DNA from: Niastella sp.
GTDB lineage: Bacteria > Bacteroidota > Bacteroidia > Chitinophagales > Chitinophagaceae
Assembly: GCA_021154515.1 (NCBI GenBank)
Contig: JAJKIL010000142.1
Location: 1 to 35,121, forward strand
DNA: 35,121 nt
Reading direction: 5' to 3'
The stretch's first letter is position 1; every line of letters begins with the position of its first letter. Both the position numbers and the translations under genes were made by a program. Positions 27,814 to 35,121 of the stretch are shown here, piece by piece. Below the pieces are notes generated by a model. The model had not been told where the DNA came from and did no database searches. It was given only the letters and a program-made list of their open reading frames with translations.

Positions 27814-28887
27814 TTATACATATTTGTAACAGACGGCATTTATGTTCATGCCTGCGCCCACTGATGCAAAAAGTATAACATCGCCCTGGTTCAAATGCTG
27901 ATCTTCTATTTCACCTTTCCGTACCAGGTCGTACAACGTAGGAATGGTGGCTACTGAACTGTTGCCTAACCATTGAATACACATGGGCATAATAAATTCA
28001 GGCGCCTCTTCTATACCATAAAGTCCGTACAATGCTTTAACTATTGCCTCATCCATTTTCTCATTGGCCTGGTGGATAAATATTTTTTTTATTTCTTTAA
28101 TAGATACCCCACTTTTATCAATACAAGCCTTCATTGCAGCAGGTACATACTTTAAAGCATACTCATATACTTTCCGGCCCTTCATTTTAATAAAGCGGGT
28201 ATCAGAACCCGTTTCAGGCGCATAAGAAGTATTAAAATTAATAAAATTCAGTTCTTCCATGCTGTCTGACCGGGTACAGGTACCCAATATACCTCCTGAA
28301 AGTGCTGTTTCTTTATTCTCAATAATACAGGCGCCCGCGCCGTCTGAAAAGATCATACTATCCCTGTCATGCACATCTATTACCCTCGACAATGTTTCCG
28401 TCCCGATCACCAAACAGGTGCCGGCCATACCTGATTTAATATAAGAATAGCCTTGTATTAAACCCTGCAACCAGCCGGGGCAACCAAATAAAATATCGTA
28501 TGGGACGCAGGATGAGTTACGAATTCCCAACAGATTTTTAACCCGTGAAGCCAGGGAGGGTACCGTATCGGATTGTATGGTGTGGGGTTGAATATCACCA
28601 TAATTATGCGCTACAATGATCTGGTCGATCTGTTCAGCATCAATGCCGGCATCTGCTATTGCCGATTTTGCGGCTTGCGCTGCCATTTTCGAGGCGTTGA
28701 ACTCTTCTGGTGCATATCGTCTTTCCCTGATACCAGTGATCGCACGAAATTTCTCAATTACGTCGGGCATTGGTACGTTGATGGGAAGGTTATTTTCAGT
28801 GTAGAACTTTCCCGGAACGAAATCGCTATTTTTTTTAATAACAGGAGGAATATAACATCCGGTTCCGGTAATAACAACATTTGACAT
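27814..28887 (-). CDS. 3-oxoacyl-ACP synthase III (KAS III)-family protein
   Basis: Cys (LFGCPGW), His (FIHQAN), Asn (WLGNSSVATI) of the KAS III triad present; ATG at 28887 preferred (TTG at 28896), with AAGGAGG upstream. Confidence 0.9.
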   Translation of the reverse strand: MSNVVITGTGCYIPPVIKKNSDFVPGKFYTENNLPINVPMPDVIEKFRAITGIRERRYAPEEFNASKMAAQAAKSAIADAGIDAEQIDQIIVAHNYGDIQPHTIQSDTVPSLASRVKNLLGIRNSSCVPYDILFGCPGWLQGLIQGYSYIKSGMAGTCLVIGTETLSRVIDVHDRDSMIFSDGAGACIIENKETALSGGILGTCTRSDSMEELNFINFNTSYAPETGSDTRFIKMKGRKVYEYALKYVPAAMKACIDKSGVSIKEIKKIFIHQANEKMDEAIVKALYGLYGIEEAPEFIMPMCIQWLGNSSVATIPTLYDLVRKGEIEDQHLNQGDVILFASVGAGMNINAVCYKYV

Positions 28888-28908
28888 ATTTTCCAAAACC
28901 TCCTTAAA

Positions 28909-30622: not shown

Positions 30623-31522
30623 TTAGGAAACCGTTAAGGCTTTCTCCGCCGCCCGCTTCTGTTGTACCAGCAACCCGTGTAACACTTCTGTAGACAACCC
30701 ATGCAGCGTAAGCCGGAATGCCGCAGACGTTGTTGGCAATGGCACCATGGGATGTTTGTTGTTCAACGCAACCAGTTTCTCCGGACAGTCCAATATGGTA
30801 GCAGCGTATAAGCCAATCACTTCATCCAGCTGCAGTGAATTGGAAGCGCGCCAGAAATCATTATCTGTTAAAAAGAACTGGTATACCGGGGTGAAGATCT
30901 CAATAGCATTGGCCAGGTCAAGGCAGTTGGTCCATTTGTCACGGAAAGGTGCAAAAGGAAAATTGTCATCGATGGTGATGGCGTTAAAATTAGGTTGATC
31001 CACCTTTTGAATGGTTACCCCTTTTTTAGCCATGGCGTTATTCAGGTTGATGATGAAATTGTACAAATTCAGGTCGTGCTGCAGGAACAGGTTATCCTTA
31101 ACCGCATTCAGATCCATGGGTTTTAACGGGTGCATGGGAATATCATCGATATGATGCACATTGTCTTTTATAAACCGCAACACTTCCGAACCCAGCACGA
31201 AATGGCGAAGAATGAGGTAGTTGGCCTCCGGGGTAATAAAATATTTCATGCCGAGGTACAGGCTCCTGTGCAGCATCTTCGGCGCATTGATCACATTCGG
31301 CATAATGGCCTTGAATACCTGTAGTAACATAATGCACAGCCTTGCAAACACCCGTACAAAAGGATACAGGAACTGTTTTGTTTTGCGGCTGCTATCGTAC
31401 AGGAAAGCCGCTTTGGCATCGGGACTGAACGGAATGCTTTTATCGAGGAACAGGGCATGCCAGTGACTCGGGTCCCTGGGATTGTTTTCCAGTTGCTCAA
31501 AGTATTCGCGTTTATGTAACAT
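30623..31522 (-). CDS. Uncharacterised mostly helical 299-aa protein, operonic with the KAS III-HDO fusion
   Basis: Intact ORF starting 11 nt after the stop of the upstream gene; family not confidently recognised. Confidence 0.8.
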   Translation of the reverse strand: MLHKREYFEQLENNPRDPSHWHALFLDKSIPFSPDAKAAFLYDSSRKTKQFLYPFVRVFARLCIMLLQVFKAIMPNVINAPKMLHRSLYLGMKYFITPEANYLILRHFVLGSEVLRFIKDNVHHIDDIPMHPLKPMDLNAVKDNLFLQHDLNLYNFIINLNNAMAKKGVTIQKVDQPNFNAITIDDNFPFAPFRDKWTNCLDLANAIEIFTPVYQFFLTDNDFWRASNSLQLDEVIGLYAATILDCPEKLVALNNKHPMVPLPTTSAAFRLTLHGLSTEVLHGLLVQQKRAAEKALTVS

Positions 31523-31533
31523 AGAAATTGGTT

Positions 31534-33411
31534 TTAGTAATTACCCAGCTCCTGTAATTGCATGGCATACAGGCGGGCAGTTATTTTTGCGGTTTTAACA
31601 ATTCTGGCGGCTATGGCTTCCTGTAACAGGTCAGATTGGATGGCCTTTTCAAAACGTTCAAAATGGTTATCGTTGGCATCGCTTGTTTCGTGATAAATAA
31701 AGAACGAAACCTGGTCATCCTGCAATTGCAATTGTTCCTGAATAGCGCGACCCCATTTACCTGCCAGCCTGTTGCCCAGTCCTTCTATAATAAACATCCC
31801 ACCGAGCAGATCAAAGGGGTTGGGTTGACTGGCCTTATGAAACATAAAGGCGCTCAATGCTTCGCTGCCGATATTCTTTTCACCCTGGCGTAATTCCTCG
31901 TAAGTACCGCCACAGGCAAGATAATTCTTTTCCAGGATCTGGTAATCGCGGTGCTCATCGCGGGAATGCGTGATAAAAGCAGAGCGGATATCAAAATATT
32001 CAATGGTAATATTCGAGGCGGCGCGGGCAATCCATTGCGAACCGTCAATTACCTGTTGCCGCAGGTTCACCAGTAATAATTTATAATCTTCCATACTGAG
32101 CGACCCATTATAGATCTTTTGTACAACAGGCACCTGACGCAAAGAGGATTCAAAATCAACCCAAACAGAAGTGAGTTGTCGTACCAGCCATTCCTGTACA
32201 GGCATGCCGCTGGTGCGGATCACAGGCGCTTCAATTGCATCATTGGTATGAATAGAAAGCGCAGGCGCAGCCGATGTTGGCGCTACCACGGTCAACTGCA
32301 TAAAGGAAGTAATGAAACGGCCGCTCTCCGGCACCATACACAACAACTTTTGTCCGGCTTGTAGTTTGCCGGAATACAACAGTTCTTCCAGCATGAGAAA
32401 GATAGAAGCGGCGCCTACGTTGCCCCTGGTATGCAGGTTGGTAAACCATTTTTCTGGTGGAATGGCACAGCCGCCTTTTTGCAACAGGTCTACGATCTGT
32501 GGCCGGAAGTATTCTGAAGAATAGTGACACAGCAACCAATCCAACTGGTTGGGGTCAACGCGTCCTTCATCAATTAAATTAAAGAAATGCTGAACACCCA
32601 GATGTACAATGTTGTGAACAATTTTCAGGTCCTGCTTCAGGTTGATAGCCGCATCATTATCGGCCTCGCTGAAAGAGCTATAATCTATCCAACTGGCTTT
32701 CCCATTGTTTTTATTCTTACCTGCGTACATGCACACATCATATAGATGGGCATGTGAGCGCAGATCGATCCAATCTATTTGTAAACTAAACTGGTGACGC
32801 GCAGGTTGGTTTTCCAGCAACAGCGCCCCTGCGCCATCAGACAGCATCCAGCGCAAAAAATCTGTTTCCAGGTCCAACTGGTTCTTTTCCTTCACCATTG
32901 TCTGCTGTTCAAAACGCTGCGCTTTAAACATGCGACTGGGCAATTCGCCGGCACAGGCAACGGCTTTATCGGCCTCGCCGGTTCTCATATGCAGCCAGGC
33001 GTTTTTTATGGCCATCATCCCGGCAGCGCATACGCTTTGGTGACTGGCAATTTCGCATTGCTCCAGTTGCGCATCGGCATGCACCATGCTGGCAAAACCA
33101 GGCACGGGCAGATCACCCTGGGTGGTAGCGGCCGACAAAAATCCGATCTCTTTTTTGGCGACACCAGCTTTTTGTAAACAACTTTGAATAGCAGCCGCCG
33201 TCATGCCACTTACGGTATGGGTAGTTTGCTGATTTTTATCGATAGCGTAATAGCGGGAGGTAATTCCATTCTGCCTGAGCATGTTTTGTTTGGTGCGGGA
33301 AGGTTTGCCAAACAGGTAGCCAAGGTATTCTTCCACTTCATCATTAGAAACGGGCGCGCCGGGCAAATACGCGCCGGCAGCCGTAATGTAAACGGGGTTT
33401 AGGGAACTCAT
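31534..33411 (-). CDS. Fusion: KAS III (DarB/StlD-like) ketosynthase + C-terminal haem-oxygenase-like (HDO/TENA-like) domain
   Basis: N-terminal ~390 aa: Cys (HQSVCAAGMM), His (LLCHYSSEYF), Asn (TRGNVGAASI), FLRWMLSDGAGALLLEN. C-terminal ~220 aa: ITHSRDEHRDYQILEKNYLACGG, GGMFIIEGLGNRLAGKW, YHETSDANDNHFERFE. Confidence 0.85.
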   Translation of the reverse strand: MSSLNPVYITAAGAYLPGAPVSNDEVEEYLGYLFGKPSRTKQNMLRQNGITSRYYAIDKNQQTTHTVSGMTAAAIQSCLQKAGVAKKEIGFLSAATTQGDLPVPGFASMVHADAQLEQCEIASHQSVCAAGMMAIKNAWLHMRTGEADKAVACAGELPSRMFKAQRFEQQTMVKEKNQLDLETDFLRWMLSDGAGALLLENQPARHQFSLQIDWIDLRSHAHLYDVCMYAGKNKNNGKASWIDYSSFSEADNDAAINLKQDLKIVHNIVHLGVQHFFNLIDEGRVDPNQLDWLLCHYSSEYFRPQIVDLLQKGGCAIPPEKWFTNLHTRGNVGAASIFLMLEELLYSGKLQAGQKLLCMVPESGRFITSFMQLTVVAPTSAAPALSIHTNDAIEAPVIRTSGMPVQEWLVRQLTSVWVDFESSLRQVPVVQKIYNGSLSMEDYKLLLVNLRQQVIDGSQWIARAASNITIEYFDIRSAFITHSRDEHRDYQILEKNYLACGGTYEELRQGEKNIGSEALSAFMFHKASQPNPFDLLGGMFIIEGLGNRLAGKWGRAIQEQLQLQDDQVSFFIYHETSDANDNHFERFEKAIQSDLLQEAIAARIVKTAKITARLYAMQLQELGNY

Positions 33412-33540
33412 ATGTCAAAATTAGTTTATTGCCGCTGCAGTTATGCTATTTATGCAGGGGGAATTAAAGAATATACCCACATAAGTCGCTAAAATGCAGA
33501 TACGTTACTTAAACAAATGTTAAGTAGAAACAAAAAAAAA

Positions 33541-33564
33541 GCCCCCGACTGAATTGTCGGGGGC
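33541..33564. terminator. Bidirectional Rho-independent terminator between hxsC and the ketosynthase fusion gene
   Basis: A9 - GCCCCCGAC-TGAATT-GTCGGGGGC - T9; functional for hxsC on the minus strand. Confidence 0.9.
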
Positions 33565-33589
33565 TTTTTTTTTGTTTATAAATTATGAG

Positions 33590-34726
33590 TTACTCAAATG
33601 GCCGGATATGCTCGCTGTGTTTTTTCAAATTCCAGGTAAACAAACCACCGCAATCGGATAATTTGGTGCACCGGCTACATTCCGGTAAATAACTTTGCTT
33701 CCAGTCGGAGATCGACTTCCTCGCATATTTCCATAACTGTTCGGGCAACACGCACAGCTGCGTATTGTAAATAGACACATGCATTCCCTGCCCTGCCAAA
33801 AATTCTACCGCTTCACCCAACTCATTCATATAATCATGCGGATCTATCCATAACTTTTCAATATTGTGCGGAGTATAACCAACGTATTCCAATCCCATGA
33901 AAGTCACGTGTTCGGCAAACGGCAGGTTCTTATAAATATACCGTGCGAGCCTTGTAAGCCGGGGAATTGATTGTTGATGCAATACCACCCTGATCTCGAT
34001 CCGTTGATTATGCCGGGCCAGGTTATGCAATCCTACAATGGTTTGATTAAAAGCATCGCAGGCCTGTACAATATAATCATGCACCTGGTAATAATCTGAA
34101 TAAACCGGAATGCCCAGCATCAGGCGGTCGTATTCCAGTGCACCAAGCCGCTCAGCCATGGCTGGCCACGCAAAGGAGCGACCGTTTGTAAGCAGGTGAA
34201 TTTCCGTATCTGGTAAATTGTGTTTTATGTTTCCGAGCATTTGGAAAAAAAGTTCTCCCATTAAGGTAGGTTCACCGCCGGAAATACATAGTTCAGGACA
34301 GTCTTTAGGGATCATCGGGATCGCCTTCTCATAAATGCTATACAGCGTGGGAATATCATTCCTGTTCCTCGGTGGCTGCGAGCACATGAGGCAGTTGCTG
34401 TTACACCTTTCCGTTGCAAGAATGGTATTATGAAAAGAATTAACGCGGTAGAGTGTCTTAATATTCCCATCATTCCCAACGGCTACCAGGTCACCTTCAA
34501 ACAAATGGTCTAGTGAAGGCACTTTATAAACCGCAGGATAGCCATTCAATTTGCCATCCTGGTTAGAAGAAGTGAGTATACAATTAAAACGGTCTGCGTT
34601 GATGTCTTGCAGTTGTTCATCACAAATGAGGATGGCATTGTTGTCTCTTGTATGCGGGTCTCTGGTGACACGGCCAACAATAAAATCCTGGATGTTTAGC
34701 GAAGTGCCTTTTGTACGTAGTAACAT
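33590..34726 (-). CDS. hxsC: His-Xaa-Ser system radical SAM maturase HxsC
   Basis: Radical SAM motif in ATERCNSNCLMCSQPPRNRND (CxxxCxxC), CISGGEPTLMG, C-terminal CSRCTKLSDCGGLF; matches recalled HxsC sequences. Confidence 0.88.
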   Translation of the reverse strand: MLLRTKGTSLNIQDFIVGRVTRDPHTRDNNAILICDEQLQDINADRFNCILTSSNQDGKLNGYPAVYKVPSLDHLFEGDLVAVGNDGNIKTLYRVNSFHNTILATERCNSNCLMCSQPPRNRNDIPTLYSIYEKAIPMIPKDCPELCISGGEPTLMGELFFQMLGNIKHNLPDTEIHLLTNGRSFAWPAMAERLGALEYDRLMLGIPVYSDYYQVHDYIVQACDAFNQTIVGLHNLARHNQRIEIRVVLHQQSIPRLTRLARYIYKNLPFAEHVTFMGLEYVGYTPHNIEKLWIDPHDYMNELGEAVEFLAGQGMHVSIYNTQLCVLPEQLWKYARKSISDWKQSYLPECSRCTKLSDCGGLFTWNLKKHSEHIRPFE

Positions 34727-34727
34727 A

Positions 34728-35121
34728 TTAAAGAACAGGTTTTACCCAACTTTCAAAAATGGTTTTAATTTTTTTATCACTGTCCATCAGCTCTATCAGG
34801 TAACGGATGATCTCCATATTACGCTGACAAAACGTACTGGTTGGCCGGTACCCGATCATGTCGCCCTTGGTGGCATGGTGATGAACCGGATCGGCGCCAC
34901 AATACGACTGAAAAGCGCAGTCGGAACAGCCAGGCAAACTTTCATTAGTGCCGGCAGCAACTATCTGGCGGGCTTTTTCTCCATACAATAAGTTTTCATA
35001 GCTATCTGTATCCAGGTGGCCCAGTTGAAAAGTATAATCCTTCATTTCAGCCAGCATACGGCTTTCATCACTGGCAAAAACAGCCCCATCGTAGTTAAAT
35101 ACGATCACATTGGTAATGGAA
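34728..35121 (-). CDS. hxsB: His-Xaa-Ser system radical SAM maturase HxsB, C-terminal part (5' end outside window)
   Basis: ...SITNVIVFNYDGAVFASDESRMLAEM... then SPASM-like CSDCAFQSYCGADPVHHHATKGDMIGYRPTSTFC; 1-nt gap to hxsC. Confidence 0.82.
   Translation of the reverse strand, partial: SITNVIVFNYDGAVFASDESRMLAEMKDYTFQLGHLDTDSYENLLYGEKARQIVAAGTNESLPGCSDCAFQSYCGADPVHHHATKGDMIGYRPTSTFCQRNMEIIRYLIELMDSDKKIKTIFESWVKPVL

Follow-up and report, generated by a model that had tools for sequence, protein, structure and literature searches.

Gene content of the locus and its conservation

The window analysed, i.e. the whole 35,121-nucleotide stretch of Niastella sp. contig JAJKIL010000142.1, contained a gene joining a ketosynthase III (KS) to a haem-oxygenase-like (HO) domain. 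The following features of the locus were recognised:

30623..31522, minus strand: DUF6999 (PF22523) gene coding for 299 aa, beginning 11 bp past the end of the fusion (Pfam, conserved partner)
31534..33411, minus strand: KS-HO fusion gene, 625 aa (ORF, Pfam/NCBIfam, full-length homologues)
31534..32199, minus strand: haem-oxygenase-like domain, residues about 405-625 (PF14518, profile and model comparison)
32284..33411, minus strand: StlD/DarB-type ketosynthase III domain, residues 1-376, catalytic C128/H296/N331 (NCBIfam, PDB structure comparison, alignment)
33530..33575, minus strand: intrinsic-terminator-like hairpin of 20 pairs with a T tract, separating hxsC from the fusion (pattern match only)
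33590-34726, minus strand: HxsC (paired radical-SAM maturase of the His-Xaa-Ser system)
34728-35108, minus strand: C-terminal part of HxsB, running off the contig end (same basis as HxsC)

The fusion ORF ran uninterrupted from 33411 to 31534 on the minus strand, a point on which the first-pass annotation had been silent, while stops occurred throughout on the plus strand. In Pfam the translation matched ACP_syn_III_C (4.6e-11) and, above the curated cut-off, Haem_oxygenas_2 (PF14518, 8.8e-8), and the AlphaFold model of the fusion had a mean pLDDT of 87.9. The three E/H/D-rich motifs named in the first-pass annotation were all present, HSRDEHRDY at residues 482-490, EGLG at 543-546 and HETSDANDNH at 574-583. 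Full-length fusions were found in more than 20 other genomes belonging to Bacteroidota (including Niastella, Maribacter, Kriegella, Flagellimonas, Pedobacter, Sphingobacterium, Crocinitomix, Fluviicola and Marinigracilibium), a Chlorobiales MAG and Paenibacillus sp. Soil766. Because of this full-length conservation the fusion was neither a chance product nor a chimeric contig, which confirmed it as a real gene and not an assembly artefact. The original proposal of a KAS III joined to an HO-fold domain in one 625-aa ORF therefore stands on Pfam, NCBIfam and genomic evidence alike; its remark that no characterised enzyme is known to have this architecture holds for the papers searched, among which no description of it was found.

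In Alphaproteobacteria (L055, L073, L133-L136) and in Pseudoalteromonas sp. THAF3 (L152) the KS and HO parts were encoded by separate adjacent genes, and their occurrence both fused and as neighbours argues for joint action. A KS/HO cassette was also present in a MAG labelled Anaerolineae (L066, 9905-11598), with a KS about 96% identical to that of the Alphaproteobacterial MAG L055, likely reflecting mis-binning or contamination. In a Taibaiella MAG (L031/L053, one assembly) a frameshift near KS residue 235 broke the fusion, which may be either a sequencing error or a pseudogene.

The gene following the fusion encoded a full-length PF22523 member (387.6 bits against a gathering score of 27, 3.1e-116). 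Of the 38 unique HO loci (copies removed), 35 also carried DUF6999; two of the remaining loci (L045 and L066) stopped at a contig end, L043 seems to be a genuine exception, and in L052 only a fragment was matched. In the reverse search starting from DUF6999, KS and HO adjoined it in each independently found locus that was read (G539, G564, G468, G809, G773, G721, G686). The fusion, initially taken alone, instead belongs with DUF6999 to a conserved cassette, and its halves also exist as separate genes. The DUF6999 model (pLDDT 82.6) gave nothing above noise in the PDB comparison (best Z 4.0), and no paper naming DUF6999 was found in the literature searches. In control searches, Caulobacter vibrioides produced matches for both DUF6999 and PF14518. 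An HpnE-like FAD protein (amine oxidase/phytoene-desaturase-type) overlapped the end of DUF6999 in L055 (12868-14214) and was absent from the other loci.

Further enzymes accompanied the cassette in part of the homologous operons. A membrane fatty acid hydroxylase (PF04116) lay upstream in 15 loci, usually overlapping or within 10 bp but a few genes from the fusion in Crocinitomix, and a DesA-like fatty acid desaturase was encoded downstream of the fusion in three loci. The frequent presence of fatty acid hydroxylase or desaturase points to a lipid-like product. The PF04116 hydroxylase was absent beside the fusion in the window and in its Niastella kin. In Flavobacteriaceae (L034, 7940-9199, and likewise L035, L037, L038 and L056) an alanine-dehydrogenase/PNT-N-like protein of about 400 aa preceded the hydroxylase.

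The HxsB/HxsC pair lay upstream of the fusion on the same strand (TIGR03977 360.8 bits, over the cut-off). A functional link was rejected, as the pair adjoined the fusion in the window only, HxsC being on another contig in the Niastella genome G209 and no HxsC scoring over the cut-off in G288, and a terminator-like hairpin stood in between. HxsB/HxsC are thus probably chance neighbours; to judge from the strong hairpin, the fusion and DUF6999 may be transcribed as a unit of their own. A few kb downstream lay another KAS III gene of ordinary type (FabH-like, 27814-28896, minus strand), which scored below all curated FabH cut-offs.

Ketosynthase and haem-oxygenase-like domains

The best NCBIfam match of residues 7-376 was the StlD/DarB family (1.3e-126), with scores below the curated cut-offs of NF005293 (422.7 vs 450 bits) and of the DarB model NF053539 (383.3 vs 550 bits). 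In the PDB structure comparison the domain matched StlD (5gk2/5gk0) with Z 51 and 39% identity at 1.9 A over 367 residues, and both results vindicated the first-pass assignment to DarB/StlD-like ketosynthase III. The Cys-His-Asn triad, described there as intact, was found without variation in 49 sequences (C128/H296/N331). OleA was also among the structural neighbours (Z 36) and UndA is a haem-oxygenase-like di-metal oxidase (HDO) acting on fatty acids (PMC13108848), both of which would suit an OleA-like KS working with an UndA-like HO domain, the latter converting a head-to-head beta-ketoacid to an enone, alkene or ketone by oxidative decarboxylation. This reading, which comes close to that of the first-pass annotation, is quite improbable, however, as the KS was much nearer to StlD than to OleA and retained the invariant residues of the StlD/DarB group.

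Comparison of the HO-linked and DarA-linked KS groups revealed 43 positions near-invariant in both, 19 of them absent from an ordinary KAS III, and no position fixed differently at the 95% level, from which it appears that the KS reaction is probably the same in the two groups. For StlD/DarB-type KS a ring-forming reaction has been described (PMC4578411, PMC3949708). The methyl ketone or alkene product mentioned in the first-pass annotation is not favoured by this identity of fixed positions with the ring-forming DarA-linked group.

The C-terminal HO fold, previously proposed from motifs, was corroborated by PF14518, by the nearest solved sequence relative, the TENA/THI-4 protein PDB 3dde (profile E 2.3e-8), and by matches of the AlphaFold model of the fusion to viral haem-oxygenase-like proteins (probability 1.00, E 0.004 to 0.02). 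PF14518 was matched by all 17 homologous HO domains scanned; the split Pseudoalteromonas HO protein was below Pfam detection, yet aligned with the HO domain of the window. Comparison of the HO profile with DUF3050-type HDO homologues by hhalign gave no usable alignment.

The HDO metal motif is E-H-E-H-(D/E)-H (PMC11363339). Five of its six positions were occupied as expected in the fusion, while position 2 was Asp489 in nearly all sequences and Asn in L043. The helix-1 His stands 12 residues before a conserved Gly in 3dde and in the DUF3050-type homologues, and the same distance from the invariant G501 leads to Asp489, so that helix 1 reads E486-x2-D489 in the fusion against E-x2-H in 3dde, with the register of position 2 set by ungapped comparison with 3dde and not by superposed structures. 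The suspicion of a non-canonical helix-1 motif was therefore justified. The candidate ligands, as judged from the alignment, are E486, D489 (replacing His), E543, H574, D578 and H583, which at face value would make an E-D-E-H-D-H set of four carboxylates and two histidines. H482, one turn upstream, is a possible substitute ligand. As the helix-1 motif is without its canonical His, binding of a single metal, or of no metal at all, is conceivable.

This replacement by Asp489, together with the example of PqqC, which has the HO fold without a metal (PMC11363339), would fit a metal-free or inactive HO domain acting as a scaffold or as a cofactor-free domain in the PqqC manner. We regard that as distinctly unlikely in view of the strict conservation of H482, E486, E543, H574, D578 and H583, invariant like E494 in 24 sequences including two separate-gene versions. 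The helix-3 spacing also speaks against it: roughly half of the groups had H-x3-D-x2-H, and the group of the window had H-x3-D-x4-H, the latter being the spacing of the diiron HDO MboA (H172, D176, H181; PMC13185094).

Exchange of the DarA partner

In the KS tree the HO-linked sequences together with three Actinobacterial KS formed one group against the classical StlD/DarB KS (SH-aLRT 100), and the classical group had a bootstrap of 100. Two of the three Actinobacterial KS were accompanied by DarA and one by neither DarA nor HO. A single DarA side of the tree was not rejected (AU test, p-AU 0.38), and the exchange between DarA and HO may have been one single partner swap. With an ordinary KAS III as outgroup, attached by a branch of 9 changes per column, rooting of the swap failed.

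In the relative from a Streptomyces plasmid the KS gene was directly followed by that of a flavodoxin-like protein with the motif YSQTGQL, homologues of which stood beside nearly all stand-alone StlD/DarB-type KS. By its position, and given the annotation of DarA as DAR-aromatase in PMC3949708, this neighbour is presumably DarA. The plasmid locus itself (L153, Streptomyces sp. NBC_01383, 13718-22146) encoded an ACP, the StlD/DarB-type KS, the DarA-like protein, an FAD hydroxylase, SCP2, FabF, a P450, a further ACP and FabG, and is possibly an unstudied Actinobacterial dialkylresorcinol-type cluster.

DarA adjoined the KS in 36 of the 42 loci without HO and in none of the 38 loci with HO (0/35 with copies removed), the count covering loci whose KS match had 1 kb or more of sequence on either side. 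These loci are related and not mutually independent, so that the Fisher test made on the counts overstates their independence. The earlier observation that no DarA partner is visible nearby was thus correct for the window and also for every locus with an HO part. Six of the 42 HO-less loci were also without DarA. In five Muribaculaceae loci (L076-L079 and L083) a divergent StlD/DarB-type KS had neither DarA nor HO nearby. At the genome level, DarA was absent from 11 of the 14 KS-HO genomes searched and present in G240, G280 (beside a second, ordinary DarB) and G680; it was found neither in the window's own genome (61% complete part) nor in the Niastella genomes G209 and G288 (100% complete).

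The simplest reading of such strict exclusion is that the DarA step has been replaced. Partner replacement at the same genomic place speaks for a related role without proving an identical reaction, and DarA had no detectable sequence relation to either HO or DUF6999. The HO domain might instead hydroxylate or cleave the same KS-made ring or its side chain, yielding a hydroxylated cyclohexenone, a quinone or a ring-opened keto acid. HDO oxidations are very varied (PMC13108848), extra oxidative partners (fatty acid hydroxylase and desaturase) occur in many of the operons and DUF6999 is an additional partner without counterpart in DarA pathways, all of which would fit this outcome; nothing else tells specifically against it, but with DarA exclusion favouring replacement of its step we consider it possible though rather unlikely.

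Proposed pathway and relation to known systems

We give about an even chance to the reading in which the KS makes a 1,3-cyclohexanedione-type ring, and HO with DUF6999 perform the oxidative finishing step of DarA. From computed features (the fusion, its conservation and split versions, the DUF6999 linkage, DarA exclusion, the KS residues and the HO fold) we infer the KS substrates, metal binding, O2 use, ring oxidation and a role for DUF6999 as follows. By analogy with StlD/DarB, the KS would take two acyl thioesters, one beta-ketoacyl and one alpha,beta-unsaturated, and, through Claisen condensation and Michael closure, build from them a 2,5-dialkyl-1,3-cyclohexanedione-type ring. The HO domain, whose site probably holds non-haem iron (or Fe/Mn), would then oxidise the ring in cis with O2, giving either a resorcinol, through oxidative aromatisation or decarboxylation, or a more oxidised ring, and DUF6999 might assist this step or handle the product. 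HO and DUF6999 would thereby take the place that the flavodoxin-like aromatase DarA has in the usual pathway.

A more specific version, in which the protein is a one-polypeptide, O2-dependent resorcinol or aromatic-ring synthase whose four-carboxylate, two-histidine HO domain aromatises in cis with a nearly obligate DUF6999, is put forward tentatively and is doubtful in its full extent. Such a metal set is otherwise typical of ferritin-like di-iron enzymes.

If the replacement of DarA is true, the last step of dialkylresorcinol-type biosynthesis would have a second solution, one that depends on oxygen. A fast-growing oxidase family would gain a ketosynthase fusion and an unusual metal motif, and DUF6999 would receive a first functional context. 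The KS-HO cassette is present in cultured organisms, namely Niastella, Maribacter, Pedobacter, Paenibacillus and Pseudoalteromonas.

The KS of the fusion has the fold, the C/H/N triad and the 43 near-invariant positions in common with the StlD/DarB KS, but belongs to a separate group, scores below the curated cut-offs and has HO fused or adjacent in place of a DarA partner. HO and DUF6999 hold the genomic position of DarA as partner of a StlD/DarB-type KS, in contrast to which DarA itself is flavodoxin-like and was never seen in an HO-bearing locus. With the HDOs (UndA, CADD, SznF, MboA, FlcE) the HO domain shares PF14518, the HO fold, the helix-2 Glu and the helix-3 H-x3-D-x2/4-H; it differs in having E-x2-D where helix 1 of 3dde and MboA has E-x2-H, in the invariant His upstream and the invariant Glu494, and in its linkage to a ketosynthase, a fusion unmentioned in the HDO review. 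PDB 3dde, to which no function is assigned, is a stand-alone protein and, unlike the fusion, retains the helix-1 E-x2-H.
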